Of a DNA stretch of 64,000 nt, positions 55,616 to 64,000 are shown in pieces (positions within the stretch are counted from its first letter, which is position 1; every line of letters starts with the position of its first letter). The stretch spans positions 3,823,546-3,887,545 of the forward strand of contig NZ_CP036269.1 in the NCBI RefSeq assembly GCF_007744675.1, read 5' to 3'. The position numbers and the translations under genes were made by a program. Origin of the DNA: Gimesia alba (GTDB taxonomy: Bacteria > Planctomycetota > Planctomycetia > Planctomycetales > Planctomycetaceae). The notes under the pieces are model-generated. The model made no database searches. It had not been told where the DNA came from and saw only the letters and a list, made by a program, of their open reading frames with translations.

Positions 55616-56632
55616 TTAGTCCTTCTCTGGTAGTTCTTTGCAAATCTGGGTAATCAAGTCTTCTACAATAATGTTTTCTGCCTGACCATCGTAATTGAGC
55701 AAGACACGATGCTGAAGCACTTCGTTTGCAAAATAGCGAATGTCTTCGAAGGCGACATGCGCACGTCCCTCACTGAGGGCACGGACGCGCGCGGCTTTTA
55801 CCAGTGATTGAGCAGCGCGCGGACTGGCTCCCCAATGCACAAAACGACGAATTTCTTCTGTTGCAAAATCGGTCCCGGGATGAGTCGAAAGCACCAGGCG
55901 AATGGCGTAGTCCCTGATCGGTTCCACCACAACGACCTTTTCCAGCACACTCCGCAATTCGAGGATTTGCTCGCTGTTTAATAACTTTTTCAATTCAACG
56001 GGTTGCTTCAAAATCGTTTGCTGCACAATCGTGTTGAGTTCATCACGGTTGGGAAAAGGAACATTCACTTTAAACATAAAGCGGTCTAACTGAGCCTCAG
56101 GTAAAGGATAGGTCCCTTCCTGCTCGATCGGGTTCTGTGTAGCCATTACAAAGAAGGGTTGATCCAGTCGATATTGGGTCCCTCCCGCTGTAACCGTTCC
56201 TTCCTGCATTGTCTCCAGTAGTGCCGATTGAGTTTTGGGAGAAGCCCGATTGATTTCATCGGCTAGCAGTAATTGCGTAAAAATGGGCCCCTTCCGGAAT
56301 TCAAATCGATAAGTACCCGTTTCATCAGTACTCATGATGTTGGTTCCAATGATATCAGCCGGCATTAAGTCAGGCGTAAACTGAATTCGCTGAAAATGCA
56401 GGTCCAGCACTTTTGAGAGCGCTTTGACGAGTTCGGTTTTTCCCAATCCGGGTACGCCTTCCAGCAAGACATTACCGCCACAAAACAGTGCGTAGAGTGT
56501 TGATTCAACGACCCTTTCCTGGCCAATGATCATCCGTGCGACTTCAGACCGCACTTCATTAAAGATCTTTTTGAAGTGGTCTGCTTCAGCCTGCAATACA
56601 GTCGGTTCTTCAGTCGTTTCTGGCTGGTTCAT
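55616..56632 (-). CDS. MoxR family AAA+ ATPase
   Basis: This 338-residue ATPase has Walker A 'GVPGLGKT' (59-66), Walker B 'LLLADEINRA' (121-130), sensor 1 'FFVMATQNPIEQEG' and an arginine finger region 'EAQLDRF'. It belongs to the MoxR class, which acts as a chaperone with VWA proteins. It lies in the middle of the array, 26 bp after the giant VWA gene and 6 bp before the DUF58 gene. ATG 56632 is clear. Confidence 0.95.
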   Translation of the reverse strand: MNQPETTEEPTVLQAEADHFKKIFNEVRSEVARMIIGQERVVESTLYALFCGGNVLLEGVPGLGKTELVKALSKVLDLHFQRIQFTPDLMPADIIGTNIMSTDETGTYRFEFRKGPIFTQLLLADEINRASPKTQSALLETMQEGTVTAGGTQYRLDQPFFVMATQNPIEQEGTYPLPEAQLDRFMFKVNVPFPNRDELNTIVQQTILKQPVELKKLLNSEQILELRSVLEKVVVVEPIRDYAIRLVLSTHPGTDFATEEIRRFVHWGASPRAAQSLVKAARVRALSEGRAHVAFEDIRYFANEVLQHRVLLNYDGQAENIIVEDLITQICKELPEKD

Positions 56633-56658: not shown

Positions 56659-59600
56659 CTATTGTTTTTCGTCGTCTGATTGTCGTTTACGTTTGAGATC
56701 CAGTAAGCGCCCCGTAGTCGATTGGTTCTCAGTAGAATCGGTCGGTGGTGCATTTGAAGACGTATTACCTGATTGTGTCGGTGTTTTTTTTCCGGTTTTG
56801 TCTGGTTGACTCTGTCGAGATGAATGCTGTTTCTGTTCTTGCAGTTTGGAAATTCTTGATTGTGTGTTTTGTTGAGCGGCTGTGGTGGAAGCCGTTCCTT
56901 TTCTCTGGTCCATTTCCTCGGCAACCCCCTGTTTTCGCTGCAAGAGGGCTCCCATCGTGGCTGTGCTGGTTTGTTTATCGGAACCAAAGCCGAACCAGCT
57001 TCGAATGACATACCAGTCCAATTGAACGCGCCGGATTCCCACATCCAGTGGTACTAAAATTGCCAGCACAATCAGTAACCAGTCAAATACCGGATTGGAA
57101 CTCTGTTTGGGATCTCGGCGACCATAGATGACTTTGGCTGCGTTCTCTGGATCAAGCCTTTGCCCCCCGGTCCGTTCAGCGATTTCTTCCAGAACAATCG
57201 GATTCGAACGGAAACGGAGGAATTCTGGTGAATAAGGCACGATAAATCCACCGTTTGTATGATCTTCACGGTCCCCGGCTTTTCCAACAGCCATCACCTG
57301 ATAGCGCCCTTTTCCCCAAAGTGGGATCGAAGCCTGGTACCGTCGGGGGCTGACCTGCTTGAGTACGACTGTTTCTTCCCGATCATGTGGACCGGAGATT
57401 TTAGCGGCGACATTCAGGAACGATTCTTCAGGATGAAAATCTTCCACCATAATTGTGGCATTATTACCAGAGGTATGGCTCCACATTTTCAGATGTTCCT
57501 GTTTTTGCACGCGAGAGATCTTGATCATTAACTGCTTGATGAATGCACGATAATGCTCCCAATTCACCCAATCTGCTCCCCAGTTGGGTGATAAATCAGA
57601 CGTAAAGGCAGCCGTTGTTCCCAGACCATAACGCCAGAAAGAGAGTACCGGATCAATTTCACCTTCTGCTTCTTTCTTTTCAGGAGCGTTTAAAATCCCC
57701 TCTGCCCTTGGCTTGATCGTGGTTAATACATACCCATGCAAGGGGGGGATTTCCTGGATCCCTTTCAGTACCGGAGAAATCATGCCGACTTCAGGAGTGA
57801 TGGTTTCGTTTTGAATCATACTCCGTTTCAGAGTTTTCGATTCTTTAATAAAGATCGAAGGTAACTGGTTGGGGTCAGAAGGAAAATAATAGCGTCCCCC
57901 GGTTGCGCCGGCGATCCCTCGCATCGTCGAGATATCACGCCCTCCGTGAGGATAGATCGCGACCATCGATACACTGACTTTGTTGTCCTGAAACTTTTTG
58001 ATTAAAGCGGGAGACGGTGGTTGGGGATCGCCGTCCGAAATGATAATCATATGCTTTGTGGATGCATCACTTTTGATCAGCCCTGTTAGACCTAATTCCA
58101 TGGTGTTCGCAAAGCTAGGCATATCTCCAATTTGGGCGCCATTGATCTTGGGGACCATTTTTTCATACTCATCGGCGGGAGTCAGTTCAAATAGCCATTT
58201 TTCCCCTCCCATGAAATCATAAATCAGGACGCCTACTTCGTCCTGGGCTCCTAAAACCTTAATCGCCTGTTTTGTGATCCGTTTTCCCCAGGTATTGCCT
58301 TCCGGAAATTCACACGTATGCAGAATGATCGCCAGAGCGCCCTTGGGAAGTATTTTCTTCTTGGTGATGTCCATGGTCACGGGGAGCGCGTCTTCGATTA
58401 CAGTACGATGGTAACCTCCGGGACCATAACTGTTCTCCCCCCCCACCATCATGAAACCGATTCCCTGATTAAAAATCGAATCATGGACGGCTTTCAGTTG
58501 AACCACATTGAACGCATCGGCGGGAACATTGACGAATACGATCGCGTCATAGGGCATCAGCGATAAAGAATCACTGGGAAACTCATATGCTGAAATCGTA
58601 TCGACGTTTCGCTCTCCTTCACGAATTGCTTTCACCAGAGACTGCCAATCACGATCATCTCCCACGGGATCGGTTACCACCAGGACCTTGCCTTCACCGG
58701 CGACATAGATGTAGTTCAGTACGGTATTATTTTCGCGAATCTGGTCATCGTCCCGCTTTGTTTCAATTGTTGCTGAATATTCATAATAGCCAGCATCTCT
58801 CAAGTAAATCGGCACCACGAACCGATTCTTTCCTGCTTTGAAGGAAACCTCTTCTTCATAGATTGGCTCACCATTCTCTCGCAGCACCAGTTTGCCGGAG
58901 CCATCCTGTAACGAAGAGAGTACAACAGCCGCTTCGTAGTTTTCTCCCAATTTAACGAAACGGGGAAGTTCCAGATTTTCCAGCCAGACCTCTTTGTCGT
59001 ATTCGTACTGAATGGGTAAAACATCAACGGCAATATCCCGCGACTTTAACTCTTCCAGAATTTGTGAAATCGAGCCTTCGGTTTCTGTGCCATCACTGAT
59101 CAATACGATCCGGCCACGATTCTCCTCAGGCAGCATGGCAGCCGCCAGGGACAGAGTCTGTTGCAGATTGGTGGCATCACGATCGATTCGCGAGTTCAGA
59201 GCCTCAAATGGAAACGAAACTCGTGGCGGAAGTTCGACAGCGGAGTTCCTGCCGAATACCACCAGCCCCGCTTCGTCAGTTTGTGGTTTTTCAGTGACCG
59301 TCTTTGTGACAAATTCCAGAGCAGAATCAACAGAAGATTCACCAATCGAATCAGAAAGATCGACCGCGTACACAACTGAGATGACATCACGAACCCGAAC
59401 GGAGCGTGGTTCTGCAATCAACATCACAAACAGTCCGAGCATCAATAAGCGTGAGATCAATGCAGCCAGGGCGCGGCCTCTACTCAGACCACCATATCCG
59501 GCAACAGAAAGCCACCAGACCCAGATTGAAAAAAGGATCAGACCAAAAGCCCAGGGACGGGCAAATAGCAGGACGTTTGACAATTCAAGACTGATACAGA

Positions 59601-59706
59601 CGATCGCATAAAGAACCAGAAAGACGATCAATGGCATCGTTCGTCGCCAGGTCACAGCGATGCGCGGTCGTGGAACGAATTGATGATAGAGTTCTTTGAT
59701 CTTCAT
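56659..59706 (-). CDS. Giant VWA/glutamine-amidotransferase-like membrane protein
   Basis: This 1015-residue protein has three N-terminal helices (about 24-100), a VWA domain with metal site 'DLSDS' at 116-120, and a large extracytoplasmic region. A class I glutamine-amidotransferase-like segment ('AIVFVNVPADAF', 'GFMMVGGENSYGPGGYHR') and a second VWA-like section ('MIIISDGDPQPPSP') follow, then a helix near 900 ('VFDWLLIVLAILVPLDVGI') and a Gln/Ser/Thr-rich cytoplasmic tail of about 100 residues. The start ATG overlaps the upstream stop as ATGA. It is probably a BatA/MoxR-pathway membrane protein, but the exact role is unknown. Confidence 0.86.
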   Translation of the reverse strand: MKIKELYHQFVPRPRIAVTWRRTMPLIVFLVLYAIVCISLELSNVLLFARPWAFGLILFSIWVWWLSVAGYGGLSRGRALAALISRLLMLGLFVMLIAEPRSVRVRDVISVVYAVDLSDSIGESSVDSALEFVTKTVTEKPQTDEAGLVVFGRNSAVELPPRVSFPFEALNSRIDRDATNLQQTLSLAAAMLPEENRGRIVLISDGTETEGSISQILEELKSRDIAVDVLPIQYEYDKEVWLENLELPRFVKLGENYEAAVVLSSLQDGSGKLVLRENGEPIYEEEVSFKAGKNRFVVPIYLRDAGYYEYSATIETKRDDDQIRENNTVLNYIYVAGEGKVLVVTDPVGDDRDWQSLVKAIREGERNVDTISAYEFPSDSLSLMPYDAIVFVNVPADAFNVVQLKAVHDSIFNQGIGFMMVGGENSYGPGGYHRTVIEDALPVTMDITKKKILPKGALAIILHTCEFPEGNTWGKRITKQAIKVLGAQDEVGVLIYDFMGGEKWLFELTPADEYEKMVPKINGAQIGDMPSFANTMELGLTGLIKSDASTKHMIIISDGDPQPPSPALIKKFQDNKVSVSMVAIYPHGGRDISTMRGIAGATGGRYYFPSDPNQLPSIFIKESKTLKRSMIQNETITPEVGMISPVLKGIQEIPPLHGYVLTTIKPRAEGILNAPEKKEAEGEIDPVLSFWRYGLGTTAAFTSDLSPNWGADWVNWEHYRAFIKQLMIKISRVQKQEHLKMWSHTSGNNATIMVEDFHPEESFLNVAAKISGPHDREETVVLKQVSPRRYQASIPLWGKGRYQVMAVGKAGDREDHTNGGFIVPYSPEFLRFRSNPIVLEEIAERTGGQRLDPENAAKVIYGRRDPKQSSNPVFDWLLIVLAILVPLDVGIRRVQLDWYVIRSWFGFGSDKQTSTATMGALLQRKQGVAEEMDQRKGTASTTAAQQNTQSRISKLQEQKQHSSRQSQPDKTGKKTPTQSGNTSSNAPPTDSTENQSTTGRLLDLKRKRQSDDEKQ

Positions 59707-61565
59707 GGTATCAATTTTACGATTAAACGATTGCCAGTGTCAGCGACGATCACTTGATCTTTTGAATTTACAGTAAGTCCCCAGGGAGTTAAAAACTCCC
59801 CTTGTCGCATTCCTGTTTTTCCAAATCTGCCTAATATTTTACCGGTTAAATCTGTTTTAGTGACCCGACCTGCTCCATATTCCACGATATAGAGCACTTC
59901 ATTCGTCCGGTCGATGGCAATGTCATAAGGGTAATAGAGTGGAATTCCCCCCGTTTTTGTGCCCAAAATTTCTAAAAATGTGCCCTCATCCGAAAATACC
60001 TGAATTCGATTATTGTCCGCATCAGCGACATAGATTTTCCCATTATGCCAAACCATTCCGGCAGGTCGCTGAAATTCCCCAGGGTTGGTGCCGACTTTTC
60101 CAAATTCCAGCAGAAATTCTCCCTGCTCGGAAAATTTTTGAATCCGATTATTCTTACCAAATTCACAGACAAAAATGTTTCCCTCTGGATCCTGGACTAC
60201 GGAGACCGGGTAAATAAATTGTCCCGGTTCAACACCATATTCGCCAAGGATTTTTTGAACATTTCCTTGTTCGTCAAAAAATATCACCCGGTGGTAATGT
60301 GTGTCAGCAACTGCAATTTGACCATTTTTTAAAAAGCAGACCCCCTCAGGCTTTCCTACATCAGATTCGGGCATCTTCCACTGTCTGATTAATTCATTAT
60401 TCGAATCATAAATCAGAACGCGACCAGCATTGTCAAGTACATAGAGTTCGTCATAGGGCCCGACATTGACGCTGCGCGGCGCGGGAATCATGATCCCTTC
60501 CGATGGCACCGGCCACTGCGTAATCTTGGAGAAGACGAGTTCCGGTGCTGAATCAGAAGAGCACCCTGAATTGAATAACAGGCACAAGAACAACATTAAT
60601 AAGCGAATCGAAATTCGATCCCCTTTTTGCAGTTCTGGCCTGACTGGACGATGGTACAAGGTCTGGGTGGCCTGGGACTCTCTGTGAGTCACAATGACTT
60701 CTTCGACCGAACCACTGAATAGAGTTGATTTGACTTCCCACAAACTCAGTTCATCTTTGTCTAACGTGATCTGCTCAGCGCGAACCAGATTGGATTCATG
60801 GTTGTCTTGTTGACGTTTCGACGGAATATTCATCGAGACAAGATCGTTGACTGGACCCAAATAAGTAGCCGCTTGATACGAGTGAGGAGTATCATACAAT
60901 ACGCTTACTTCGCCAGAATAAATAACCTTACCTTGGTCGAGACAAATCACGTATTCCGCTTCTCTCAACACAAGCTCTGGCTGATGCGTTGAAAAGACAA
61001 GCGATGTATTATTTTCCTGACAATGTTCCCGGATTGTATTCCAGTATAAAGGCCAATGGGTCTGATCGACATGGATCAATGGCTCATCCATCACTAAGAC
61101 TTTTGCTTTACTGGCCAGTGCCCGGGCGACTGCTAAACGTGAAGCCTCTCCCTGTGAAATTTGTCCGGGGTATTGATTGCGAACCTCTGTCAAACCCAAT
61201 GTGGTGAGTAGTTCGTCCACAGTTTCCTGTCGAGAATCAGGGTTGGGGTGAACCAGCATTAAGTGGTCCTGAACTGTATATTGCGGCCACAAACCGAGAT
61301 TATGGGGGACCCAAAACAGATCGAGATCAGCGTTAGCCTGAAACCCATCATTCGTGCGAGTAATGTTTCCCCGATCGGGAACTTCATAAGCGATCAGTAA
61401 ATTCAGTAAAGAGGTTTTTCCCGCGCCAGAATATCCCATGATTGCAGTCACGCCTCGTGGGATCTCAAGATCAACCCCATCTAAACGGACGCCGGACGCA
61501 GACATCAGGCTGACATGATTCAGTGACCACAACAAGGTATCTGATTGTAAGGTGTCAATAGTCAT
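59703..61565 (-). CDS. ABC ATPase fused to a membrane anchor and NHL-repeat propeller
   Basis: This 620-residue protein combines parts not usually joined. Residues 1-235 are an ABC ATPase (Walker A GYSGAGKT 44-51, Walker B VLVMDE 156-161, switch His194). Residues 265-322 look like a TOBE-type beta domain. A hydrophobic helix with a lipobox-like NSGC (Cys335) follows, then six NHL-type blades to the end ('VADTHYHRVIFFDEQG', 'FVCEFGKNNRIQKF', 'VADADNNRIQVFSDEG'). The signature is ISQGE (136-140) and the Q-loop Gln is His88, both unusual. It should pair with the permease encoded upstream (gap 7 bp). An internal ATG at residue 324 could yield a free NHL lipoprotein. Confidence 0.86.
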   Translation of the reverse strand: MTIDTLQSDTLLWSLNHVSLMSASGVRLDGVDLEIPRGVTAIMGYSGAGKTSLLNLLIAYEVPDRGNITRTNDGFQANADLDLFWVPHNLGLWPQYTVQDHLMLVHPNPDSRQETVDELLTTLGLTEVRNQYPGQISQGEASRLAVARALASKAKVLVMDEPLIHVDQTHWPLYWNTIREHCQENNTSLVFSTHQPELVLREAEYVICLDQGKVIYSGEVSVLYDTPHSYQAATYLGPVNDLVSMNIPSKRQQDNHESNLVRAEQITLDKDELSLWEVKSTLFSGSVEEVIVTHRESQATQTLYHRPVRPELQKGDRISIRLLMLFLCLLFNSGCSSDSAPELVFSKITQWPVPSEGIMIPAPRSVNVGPYDELYVLDNAGRVLIYDSNNELIRQWKMPESDVGKPEGVCFLKNGQIAVADTHYHRVIFFDEQGNVQKILGEYGVEPGQFIYPVSVVQDPEGNIFVCEFGKNNRIQKFSEQGEFLLEFGKVGTNPGEFQRPAGMVWHNGKIYVADADNNRIQVFSDEGTFLEILGTKTGGIPLYYPYDIAIDRTNEVLYIVEYGAGRVTKTDLTGKILGRFGKTGMRQGEFLTPWGLTVNSKDQVIVADTGNRLIVKLIP

Positions 61566-61572
61566 CGTTTTA

Positions 61573-63036
61573 TTAAGTCTCAGTCAGACCCGAACGGTTT
61601 GAACTTAAAATCCACAGTTTTTTGACAAGCGGGAACAGCAACAGACTTACGCAAACAGGAATGCATAGACTGAGAAAGGTGATTCCAGACAACATTGAAT
61701 TCTGCCCGTAATGCATCAGATTATAAAGGCGGACAGTTGAAGGTTGCGCCTTATTTGGCGCCAATATGGAACTGAGGGTGACATTCCAATAGGCCCAGAA
61801 GGCAAGGATCGCAATTGCCCAATATTGCATTTTTCCATTCACTGACCAGAGTAATTGGACTCCCTTGAGTGCTTGTGTTTTATGTTTTGACCGACTCAAC
61901 AGCCGCGCCAGATAGAGGGCATCGTTTTTGGTTTGGGGCAGAAAGATCAATTTCAAAAAAACGGCTCTGGGAAAAAGAAACAGCACCATCGCGAGAATGA
62001 TCGCCAGAGGAGTATCGTACAGCCAATAACCGTAATTCGTTAACAATAATGAGGCTATCAAAAGCGCCAGAGTCAAAGCACCACAAAGGCCGGGTAGACA
62101 GCAGAGACAACCCAGGATTTTGATTTGGGAACTCTGCTTTGTGGCAAAGAAAATGTTAGCCAGCCCCCAGGCGGCAATACCAGAGGTCAACCCATACACG
62201 AGCCCCCAGGCGGATTCCTGTAGGGTCCCCCTCAATTGTAATTGATTCTGCAGAAGACTCCCTAATGCATGCACACCGCCCCATCCAATGAAAATAAACG
62301 GCACGAACCCGATCAGGAAAAATGCAGCAAGTACATAACCCCATGACAAGATTGTGGAAACACGTGAGATGTTGGGGCGCTGAAATGGTTGATTCAGGGC
62401 AGGTTGATTCTTCAGCCGCGACAGGAGCAAGATGACACCAGTAATGAGAATTAATTCAATAAGGAGCGGTCCTGATATAAATGACAGAGTTTGATTCACA
62501 GGAACACCTCCTGCTTGCGCGTCGAATATCCAGACTGTCCATGAATCCTGGTAAAGCAATGACGCCATCTCAAATTCCTGAAATGACAAAAGAAATAACA
62601 ACGCTCCGATCGGAAATGTACGAATCACGGTCTTCCACAGAAAGAAATTCCATTGTGAGCGAGGCTTTGTAATCTGCGCTACAGGTGATCGGACTGATTT
62701 TCTGATAAAATCAGCCTCTGGAGAAATCGCAGAGGGAGGGGATAGACAAAAACAGATTATTCCCACAGGAACCACTTTCAGTAATACCAGGCTTGAATAA
62801 AGCAACTCGATTAAAAAGGGATAATGCACCAATTTGAGGGAAATGAGTTGCCAGGCATAAGCCACAATCAATTCGGGCATCAATAAAGGGACTAAGATCA
62901 GTGTAAATAGAAATAGGGAACGACGTGAATACCCTGCCTCAACGATCCGTGATACGTGTCCGGATAAAAAGACTCCTATGATAGAAATGCAGAAACTGCG
63001 TAACACTGTCACGCCACAAGCTGTGGCCAGGCTCAT
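61573..63036 (-). CDS. ABC importer permease, two-module (FbpB/ThiP type)
   Basis: This 487-residue membrane protein has about 12 hydrophobic helices in two halves with EAA-like loops ('EADFIRKSVRSPVAQI' in the first half and 'DALYLARLLSRSKHKTQAL' in the second). This pattern is that of ferric-iron/thiamine-type permeases with a doubled domain. The start overlaps the upstream binding-protein stop by ATGA. The ATPase partner is the NHL fusion encoded downstream. The substrate is not determined; iron or a small cation-like solute is the family expectation. Confidence 0.84.
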   Translation of the reverse strand: MSLATACGVTVLRSFCISIIGVFLSGHVSRIVEAGYSRRSLFLFTLILVPLLMPELIVAYAWQLISLKLVHYPFLIELLYSSLVLLKVVPVGIICFCLSPPSAISPEADFIRKSVRSPVAQITKPRSQWNFFLWKTVIRTFPIGALLFLLSFQEFEMASLLYQDSWTVWIFDAQAGGVPVNQTLSFISGPLLIELILITGVILLLSRLKNQPALNQPFQRPNISRVSTILSWGYVLAAFFLIGFVPFIFIGWGGVHALGSLLQNQLQLRGTLQESAWGLVYGLTSGIAAWGLANIFFATKQSSQIKILGCLCCLPGLCGALTLALLIASLLLTNYGYWLYDTPLAIILAMVLFLFPRAVFLKLIFLPQTKNDALYLARLLSRSKHKTQALKGVQLLWSVNGKMQYWAIAILAFWAYWNVTLSSILAPNKAQPSTVRLYNLMHYGQNSMLSGITFLSLCIPVCVSLLLFPLVKKLWILSSNRSGLTET

Positions 63037-64000
63037 TTCAAGTACTCCGATTTAAGCCAGGCCAGCGTTTCTTCTCGCTGTTTTACCAGATTTACTAAAG
63101 GGTATGCATTGATAATGTAGGGTCGATATTCTTTGACTGTTTCAGGCACCTCGTCCCAGTTCACAGTCCCTATAGGGATTTGACGGGACTGTGATTGCGC
63201 CAATTTTATCTCAACTTCTTCAGAAAGTAAAAAATCTACCAGCGCTTCTGCTTGTTTACGTTTTTTTGTTCCTTTGATGATGGCAACACTATTCGGAATG
63301 AGGATTGCCTTATCGTTCACTGTGATCGGCACCGCAGCAACTGGTTTTGCTTCATCAACGGCGACATAATAGTCGTCGGTATCAGTAAATCCTAAAACAC
63401 AGGTGCCATTCGCCACCAGATTTTTCACACTGGCGTTTCCAGAAGTTTCCTGAATCCCCCGTTCCTTCAGGGAGTGATACCAGGCCTTCAATCGGTCCAG
63501 TCCCCATGCATCACAGAGCACGGTAAAGTGAGTCAAGGTTGTGCCATAGAGCGGCTTCGCAATTGCAACATCAGTCAGAGATCCCGCTAACTTCTGCTCG
63601 ATACTCTCTTCGGATGCGTTCATCTTTTCTGTATTAGTAATATAAACGCGCAATCGCGCTGCAAAACCGGTCCAATAGCCTTCGGGGTCTTTAAACTCAT
63701 CGGGAATCCTGTCATAACCATCTCCTTGATACGCTTCCAGCACCCCCTGCTCTTTGAGAGCAGCTGTCCCCAGGGTCTGGTTATTCCAGAAAACATCACA
63801 ACGTGGATGGTCTTGTTCCCGGACAATTAAGTTTGTCAAACCCAGCGACTTGGTTGCTTCCGTATCGAAACGTGGTTCAACTTTGATTCCCGTTTTTTGC
63901 TCAAACGCGTTTAATATTTCTTCCGAAAATACGGCGTCATGTGCGCAGTAAACAACGAGAGCATCGCTTTGTTGCTGGTAAAAAAAGACTAATCCAACGG
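63033..64000 (-). CDS. ABC transporter substrate-binding protein, ferric-type (N-terminus beyond window)
   Basis: The reading frame is open to the right edge, so the gene start lies outside. The visible 322 residues include part of an N-terminal hydrophobic segment ('VGLVFFYQQQ') and then 'ALVVYCAHDAVFSEEILNAF', the opening beta-alpha unit of the Fe(III)/FbpA-type binding proteins. Later parts include 'CDVFWNNQTLGTAALKEQG' and 'EGYWTGFAARLRVYI'. It should bind a solute outside the membrane and deliver it to the two-module permease. A TTG at 63839 is not the start, because the homologous sequence continues upstream. Confidence 0.88.
   Translation of the reverse strand, partial: VGLVFFYQQQSDALVVYCAHDAVFSEEILNAFEQKTGIKVEPRFDTEATKSLGLTNLIVREQDHPRCDVFWNNQTLGTAALKEQGVLEAYQGDGYDRIPDEFKDPEGYWTGFAARLRVYITNTEKMNASEESIEQKLAGSLTDVAIAKPLYGTTLTHFTVLCDAWGLDRLKAWYHSLKERGIQETSGNASVKNLVANGTCVLGFTDTDDYYVAVDEAKPVAAVPITVNDKAILIPNSVAIIKGTKKRKQAEALVDFLLSEEVEIKLAQSQSRQIPIGTVNWDEVPETVKEYRPYIINAYPLVNLVKQREETLAWLKSEYLK

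Follow-up and report, generated by a model that had tools for sequence, protein, structure and literature searches.

One gene of Gimesia alba encodes an ABC ATPase, a TOBE-like domain, an internal lipoprotein-type signal and a six-bladed NHL propeller in a single uninterrupted frame of 620 codons. We propose that this frame specifies a precursor of two products, to which Lgt would attach a lipid and which signal peptidase II would cleave in front of Cys335. From the sequences compared here we put the probability of this reading at roughly 0.6. A permanent link between an inner motor and an outer sensor is not required.

Results

A transporter ATPase and an NHL propeller share one frame

The gene is located in a window of 64,000 nucleotides, i.e. 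the whole stretch of DNA that was analysed. Its frame starts at 61565 and ends at 59703 on the minus strand; the plus-strand reading of the same segment contains many stops. In the one protein Pfam matched both ABC_tran (E 2.7e-23, residues 28-163) and, with E 1.4e-29, NHL. This bears out the initial annotation, which had read both domains in one frame.

Table 1. Features of the fused gene and its neighbours, in window coordinates.
Feature	Position	Strand	Basis
Fused ORF, 620 aa: ABC ATPase, TOBE-like domain, internal lipoprotein signal, NHL propeller	59703..61565	-	
ABC nucleotide-binding domain, about residues 11-225	60891..61535	-	motifs, Pfam
TOBE-like domain, about residues 237-322	60600..60857	-	orthologue and profile matches; low model confidence
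Internal lipoprotein-type signal, residues 315-335	60561..60623	-	alignment of fusions
Cys335 codon, predicted lipidation and cleavage site	60561..60563	-	invariance
In-frame ATG, residue 324, candidate alternative start of the initial annotation; not conserved	60594..60596	-	
Six-bladed NHL propeller, residues 347-619	59709..60527	-	Pfam, AlphaFold2, Foldseek
Permease, 487 aa	61573..63036	-	label from the initial annotation, hydrophobic runs, position
Solute-binding protein (SBP), SBP_bac_8 type, extends past the window edge	63033..64000	-	Pfam
VWA / GATase1-like protein, 4-nt overlap with the fused ORF	56659..59706	-	
MoxR-like AAA ATPase (presumed name); homologues after VWA in several relatives	55616..56632	-	

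On the minus strand the gene order is SBP, permease, fused gene, VWA and MoxR. According to the ORF ends, SBP and permease overlap by 4 nt, permease and ABC part are separated by a gap of 7 nt, and NHL part and VWA overlap by 4 nt. The permease and VWA/MoxR genes flank the fused gene as had been annotated. At the thresholds used, neither Pfam nor NCBIfam matched the permease; its homologues lie upstream of the ATPase in relatives, and it is identified by position and by homology among relatives. For the SBP the nearest NCBIfam models were 2-aminoethylphosphonate SBPs, below cut-off. The last gene of the row we take to be MoxR-like, following the initial annotation.

The Cys at the junction is invariant

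The junction Cys was present in 74/74 fusions of the family, spanning 26 genera. A script had selected it from a 27-position window; in a plain alignment of 24 fusions it fell into one column. The residue ahead of it was Gly in 69, Ser in 3 and Ala in 2 proteins, and the neighbouring columns varied. Fusions from outside the family carried [GS]C in 4/4 cases read, so that the Cys was found in 78/78 ATPase fusions altogether. The hydrophobic segment with a lipobox-like Cys335 in the initial annotation stands. Between residues 316 and 353 of 28 diverse fusions Gly334 and Cys335 were the sole invariant positions. In the 74 fusions the n-region was basic with a median net charge of +3, and the uncharged run before the Cys had a median of 13 and a maximum of 18 residues. 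Basic n-region, hydrophobic stretch and [GAS]-Cys, i.e. the features of a lipoprotein signal, were all found in these 74 proteins and in the four from outside the family. In the fused form this signal starts at about residue 315, not at the N-terminus. In relatives with two separate genes Gly-Cys was located near the NHL start in 35/35 cases.

An invariant Gly/Ser/Ala-Cys amid drifting surroundings is the mark of a working, processed lipobox. The invariance of Gly334 and Cys335 is as expected where lipidation and cutting are important; for a mere anchor it is not. The G. alba genome contains one LspA gene and two Lgt-type genes. The second Lgt-type gene (G000:C1:4246727-4247461) is the weaker match with 106 bits compared to 234 for the first.

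The shortness of the hydrophobic stretch was considered as proof against an anchor and dropped. The permease's own hydrophobic runs have a median of 15 by the same measure, and run length does not separate a cut signal from an uncut anchor.

Fused and split states coexist in the family

A draw of 59 relatives yielded 47 matches; the nearest named relative found was a Gimesia sp. MAG (L038) with 72% identity. In further genomes of the genus the same uninterrupted frame was observed in 15/16; only G015, with a completeness of 74%, had no match. A stop between the halves in all close relatives is thus not what the genus displays. At family level 127/170 genomes matched at E 1e-45. Leaving out G024, G033, G069, G090, G106, G150 and G152, 120 were classified: 74 with an open ABC-NHL junction, one fused but cut by a contig end (G127), 35 split and 10 with NHL only. 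G343, G071 and G025 were classified by direct reading where the tabulated open-frame length disagreed. The full-length architecture is accordingly widespread in other planctomycetes, and both states that the initial annotation had proposed to look for exist. Of the 74 fusions 72 were clean. The remaining two are from draft genomes: in G036 a TAA interrupts the ATPase half, and in G185 the frame changes within the NHL half. Such interrupted copies would speak for an assembly or frame error in the window, near 60.6 kb. We give this explanation virtually no credence and rejected it: the G. alba genome is a single contig, 99.97% complete, and the same open frame recurs across genus and family, in several cases in one-contig genomes.

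In the split state two genes share one locus. A possible NHL start overlaps the ATPase stop by 4 nt in at least 16 split relatives. In the 10 NHL-only loci no ATPase was found in the stretch examined; three of these genomes (G111, G085, G086) have an SBP-permease-ATPase set at another site.

A class-wide draw of 248 genomes showed no fusion outside the family among the matches listed. G343, among the matches listed the only outsider with both halves, is split by a stop between them. This genome is assigned to a different family within the class, yet its locus (L189) contains SBP, permease, ATPase, NHL and VWA genes resembling those in the family of the window; either transfer or a misplaced contig may be behind this. 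The impression from the class draw that the fusion is confined to the family was wrong. In a draw of 392 genomes from the phylum full-length matches were obtained in five genomes of four other families. G368, G459, G525 and G621 were read and are all fused, with SBP, permease and VWA around; G663 is apparently fused by the match table and G381 is split by match-table rows.

In three other genomes of the phylum (loci L271, L274 and L278) a more distant ATPase gene is located upstream of NHL-VWA and is not fused. Other long frames before NHL (L196, L201, L260-L268, L272, L273, L275, L279) had no ATPase, permease or SBP match on the NHL strand when queried with the respective parts of the window or of the Phycisphaerae MAG L039.

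A like propeller is also joined to a permease

In L039 (L039:726-3539) the NHL half resides in a frame of 938 codons, the first part of which is a permease according to NCBIfam permease models, below cut-off; an SBP gene is directly upstream. The L039 protein matched 128 of the 392 phylum genomes. The C-terminus of a permease and NHL share one frame in 16 read genomes (L240-L255) and in L039. L240 (G579) was counted although only 237 in-frame residues precede the Cys; L259 (G606) was unclear and left out. In these 17 loci an SBP precedes in 15, VWA follows in 13 and MoxR in 12; some loci end early. Gly or Ser stands before the Cys in 17/17. In three relatives permease and NHL are separate neighbours. 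With the ATPase of the window as a query no ATPase was detected beside the permease-NHL fusions (E 1e-5).

In a tree of NHL domains the ATPase group (28 of 109 rows plus four fusions from outside the family) and the permease group, with 21 rows, formed separate clades with support of 100 and 97. The separate fusions and clades indicate that NHL lipoproteins of this kind became attached to two different subunits of a transporter, in both cases to the one encoded immediately upstream.

Properties of the two halves

Motifs of the ATPase half are GYSGAGKTS (Walker A), ISQGE (signature), VLVMDEP (Walker B) and His194 (H-loop). Walker A G-x-S-G-x-G-K, signature S-x-G-E and D-E-P were conserved in 109/109 rows, the H-loop His in 108/109. 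At the Q-loop (residue 88, 61302-61304, minus strand) the protein of the window has His, and the canonical Gln is absent. Gln is kept in 7/74 fused versus 27/35 split rows; substitutes in the other 67 fusions are Pro, His, Ala, Ser and Gly. A link of this change to the fusion was considered and rejected, as independent pairs gave no support.

Residues 237-322 are probably TOBE-like, with moderate support. Pfam found no TOBE in the protein of the window itself, whereas TOBE_2 matched 6/28 orthologues. A profile of the region had its best solved match in the C-terminal part of the Thermus FbpC-type ATPase 9j4r, a weak one (E 0.0063), followed by titin at E 0.043. The consensus is LGPxNW...RPEQL...FxGSxxE...HRP...GxRVxLR. 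The split ATPases of G062 (L176), G071 (L177), G104 (L156) and G105 (L149) end ahead of this region.

An AlphaFold2 model built from 11 rows (mean pLDDT 74.8) predicted 24 strands between residues 347 and 619, i.e. a confident propeller of six four-stranded blades, a helix at 314-331, and pLDDT below 50 at 226-312. In Foldseek the propeller resembled the NHL propellers of Thin and TRIM71, in line with the six blades annotated before, and the ATPase resembled those of the FbpC/MalK type.

Discussion

A probable route to two products

The ribosome would first make the ABC ATPase and the TOBE-like domain. The last TOBE-like strand (KGDRISIRL), which is basic, may double as the n-region of the internal lipoprotein signal. 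The hydrophobic stretch 323-334 would then enter the membrane N-in/C-out, Lgt would lipidate Cys335 and signal peptidase II (LspA) would cut between Gly334 and Cys335. The predicted outer product is an NHL-propeller lipoprotein, the inner one an ATPase subunit that keeps a short tail in the membrane. Perhaps the tail is later trimmed by an S2P protease such as RseP, which is reported to take part in the elimination of signal peptides (PMC8144685). Frame, domains, lipobox invariance, the Lgt and LspA genes and the alternative split state lend support at sequence level; membrane insertion, lipidation and cutting are what we infer from them. A likely consequence would be synthesis of both products at a fixed ratio.

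Several points count against cutting. A lipoprotein signal behind a cytoplasmic part of 320 residues is unusual, and stretch 323-334 could be an uncut anchor. The TOBE-like region abuts the membrane segment without a linker, and docking on the permease is hard to place. In canonical importers TOBE sits away from the membrane. Therefore, the tail would here need trimming, or the geometry would be unusual.

Other readings of the junction

In an uncut bitopic protein the ATPase would be anchored covalently by residues 323-334 and the propeller would be held outside, possibly lipidated, as a sensor or substrate funnel of the importer. We regard this as unlikely. The junction is open in 74 genomes of the family and in other families, the operon includes SBP and permease, AlphaFold2 predicts the helix at 314-331, and a like propeller is fused to a permease in another group, a hint that proximity to the transporter may be of importance. 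The invariant lipobox, however, bears the mark of processing, 35 genomes have separate genes, and in 10 loci no ATPase was found beside NHL. The covalent link is thus dispensable. Further, 13 class-level loci gave no match to an SBP, permease or ATPase of this type, and in 10 of them NHL lies near VWA (in one 3 kb away). The steadier partner of NHL is the VWA gene; because NHL stays near VWA even without the transporter, a transporter-sensor role is unproven. Of the inside ATPase tied to an outside propeller in the initial annotation, the topology is supported as a prediction. The lasting covalent tie to a sensor is doubtful, as the invariant lipobox predicts a cut between Gly334 and Cys335 and the halves occur apart.

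The two products might also arise by internal initiation, ribosomes starting near residue 324 in addition and yielding a free NHL lipoprotein beside the long fusion. The ATG is there, as had been annotated, and some ATG is located from -40 to -10 of the Cys in 25/74 fusions. Yet codon 324 is ATG in just 5/16 genus members, the window included; 7/74 ATPase fusions and 3/17 permease fusions have no ATG, GTG or TTG in that interval, and a start at 324 would leave no basic residue ahead of the hydrophobic stretch. Nor is the junction under extra synonymous constraint: in the 16 genus members synonymous variability at residues 301-340 was 0.57, among the higher values of the gene. It was lowest at 601-620 (0.23), directly ahead of the downstream VWA start, and also low at 1-20 (0.36), 521-560 (0.41) and 581-600 (0.36). 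Low values thus also occur away from start sites, the control is not clean, and this measure is suggestive only. Neither the start-codon survey of the 74 fusions nor the synonymous variability of the 16 genus members revealed a visible initiation signal at the junction. We rejected Met324 as an internal start on both grounds, the latter with its unclean control; internal initiation is quite improbable.

Why the fusion exists is another matter. Compatible with cutting, it may be a near-neutral accident of gene overlap with ATPase and propeller functionally unlinked: a lipoprotein gene in a tight operon becomes joined to whatever precedes, and processing makes the joining harmless. This account has a real, if less than even, chance. 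It agrees with the possible 4-nt overlaps in split relatives, with two different upstream partners and with NHL-VWA loci lacking the transporter. The changes between the two states point the same way. Fused and split states require 6 changes on a tree of ATPase plus NHL, and 9 on the best tree of NHL plus VWA with outgroup, at least 5 of them forced by supported branches; both trees leave out the fusions from other families, their base is poorly resolved and long branches meet there. Fused G063 and split G062 even belong to the same genus. Against near-neutrality, the fusion persists across 26 genera and in all matching members of the genus, and it is the commonest state among the classified family genomes.

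Relation to known systems

The ATPase half is like importer ATPases of the FbpC/PhnT2/ModC type (Thermus FbpBC 9j4r, FbpC 3fvq) in Walker A, signature, Walker B and H-loop, in the putative TOBE-like C-terminal domain and in the adjoining SBP and permease genes. It differs by the lipoprotein signal and propeller added after the TOBE-like region and by the replaced Q-loop Gln in 67/74 fusions. The 25 NCBIfam models among the matches listed all score far under their own cut-offs. The propeller shares fold and repeat motif with TRIM71, Thin and Brat, and the model of bacterial ScyF matches below cut-off; unlike those of TRIM71, Thin and Brat it is predicted to be an exported lipoprotein in a transporter/VWA operon.

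In the MacB/ABCG type an N-terminal ATPase is followed by membrane and extracytoplasmic sequence, and the transmembrane domain itself is within the chain; the protein reported here carries a single lipoprotein-type signal instead. A related principle is that of FbcH, the cytochrome b/c1 precursor of Bradyrhizobium. There, one gene gives rise to two membrane-linked proteins by a cut at an internal signal peptide; the cleavage site is not a lipobox and the products are two respiratory subunits. Here, the gene has a lipobox and a transporter ATPase, and the two mature products are predicted. In titles, abstracts and open PMC text we found no description of such a protein. The lipobox form, in which the first product is either a transporter ATPase or a permease, appears to be new among genes whose product is cut at an internal signal.

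In a wider sense, we lean towards the view that Planctomycetota use signal peptidase II as a polyprotein splitter. Envelope lipoproteins would be made as C-terminal extensions of a transporter subunit facing the cytoplasm, either an ATPase (Planctomycetaceae and some other families) or a permease (the Phycisphaerae MAG and 16 further genomes), be released at an internal lipobox and thus be subject to obligate one-to-one synthesis. If cut, the protein would be a polyprotein that occurs naturally in bacteria and is resolved through lipoprotein processing, and its first partner is of two different kinds. If uncut, it would be an importer ATPase whose outer propeller is anchored by a lipid, and this would be stranger still. 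Either way, the label 'ABC ATPase' alone or 'NHL protein' alone omits half of the product.
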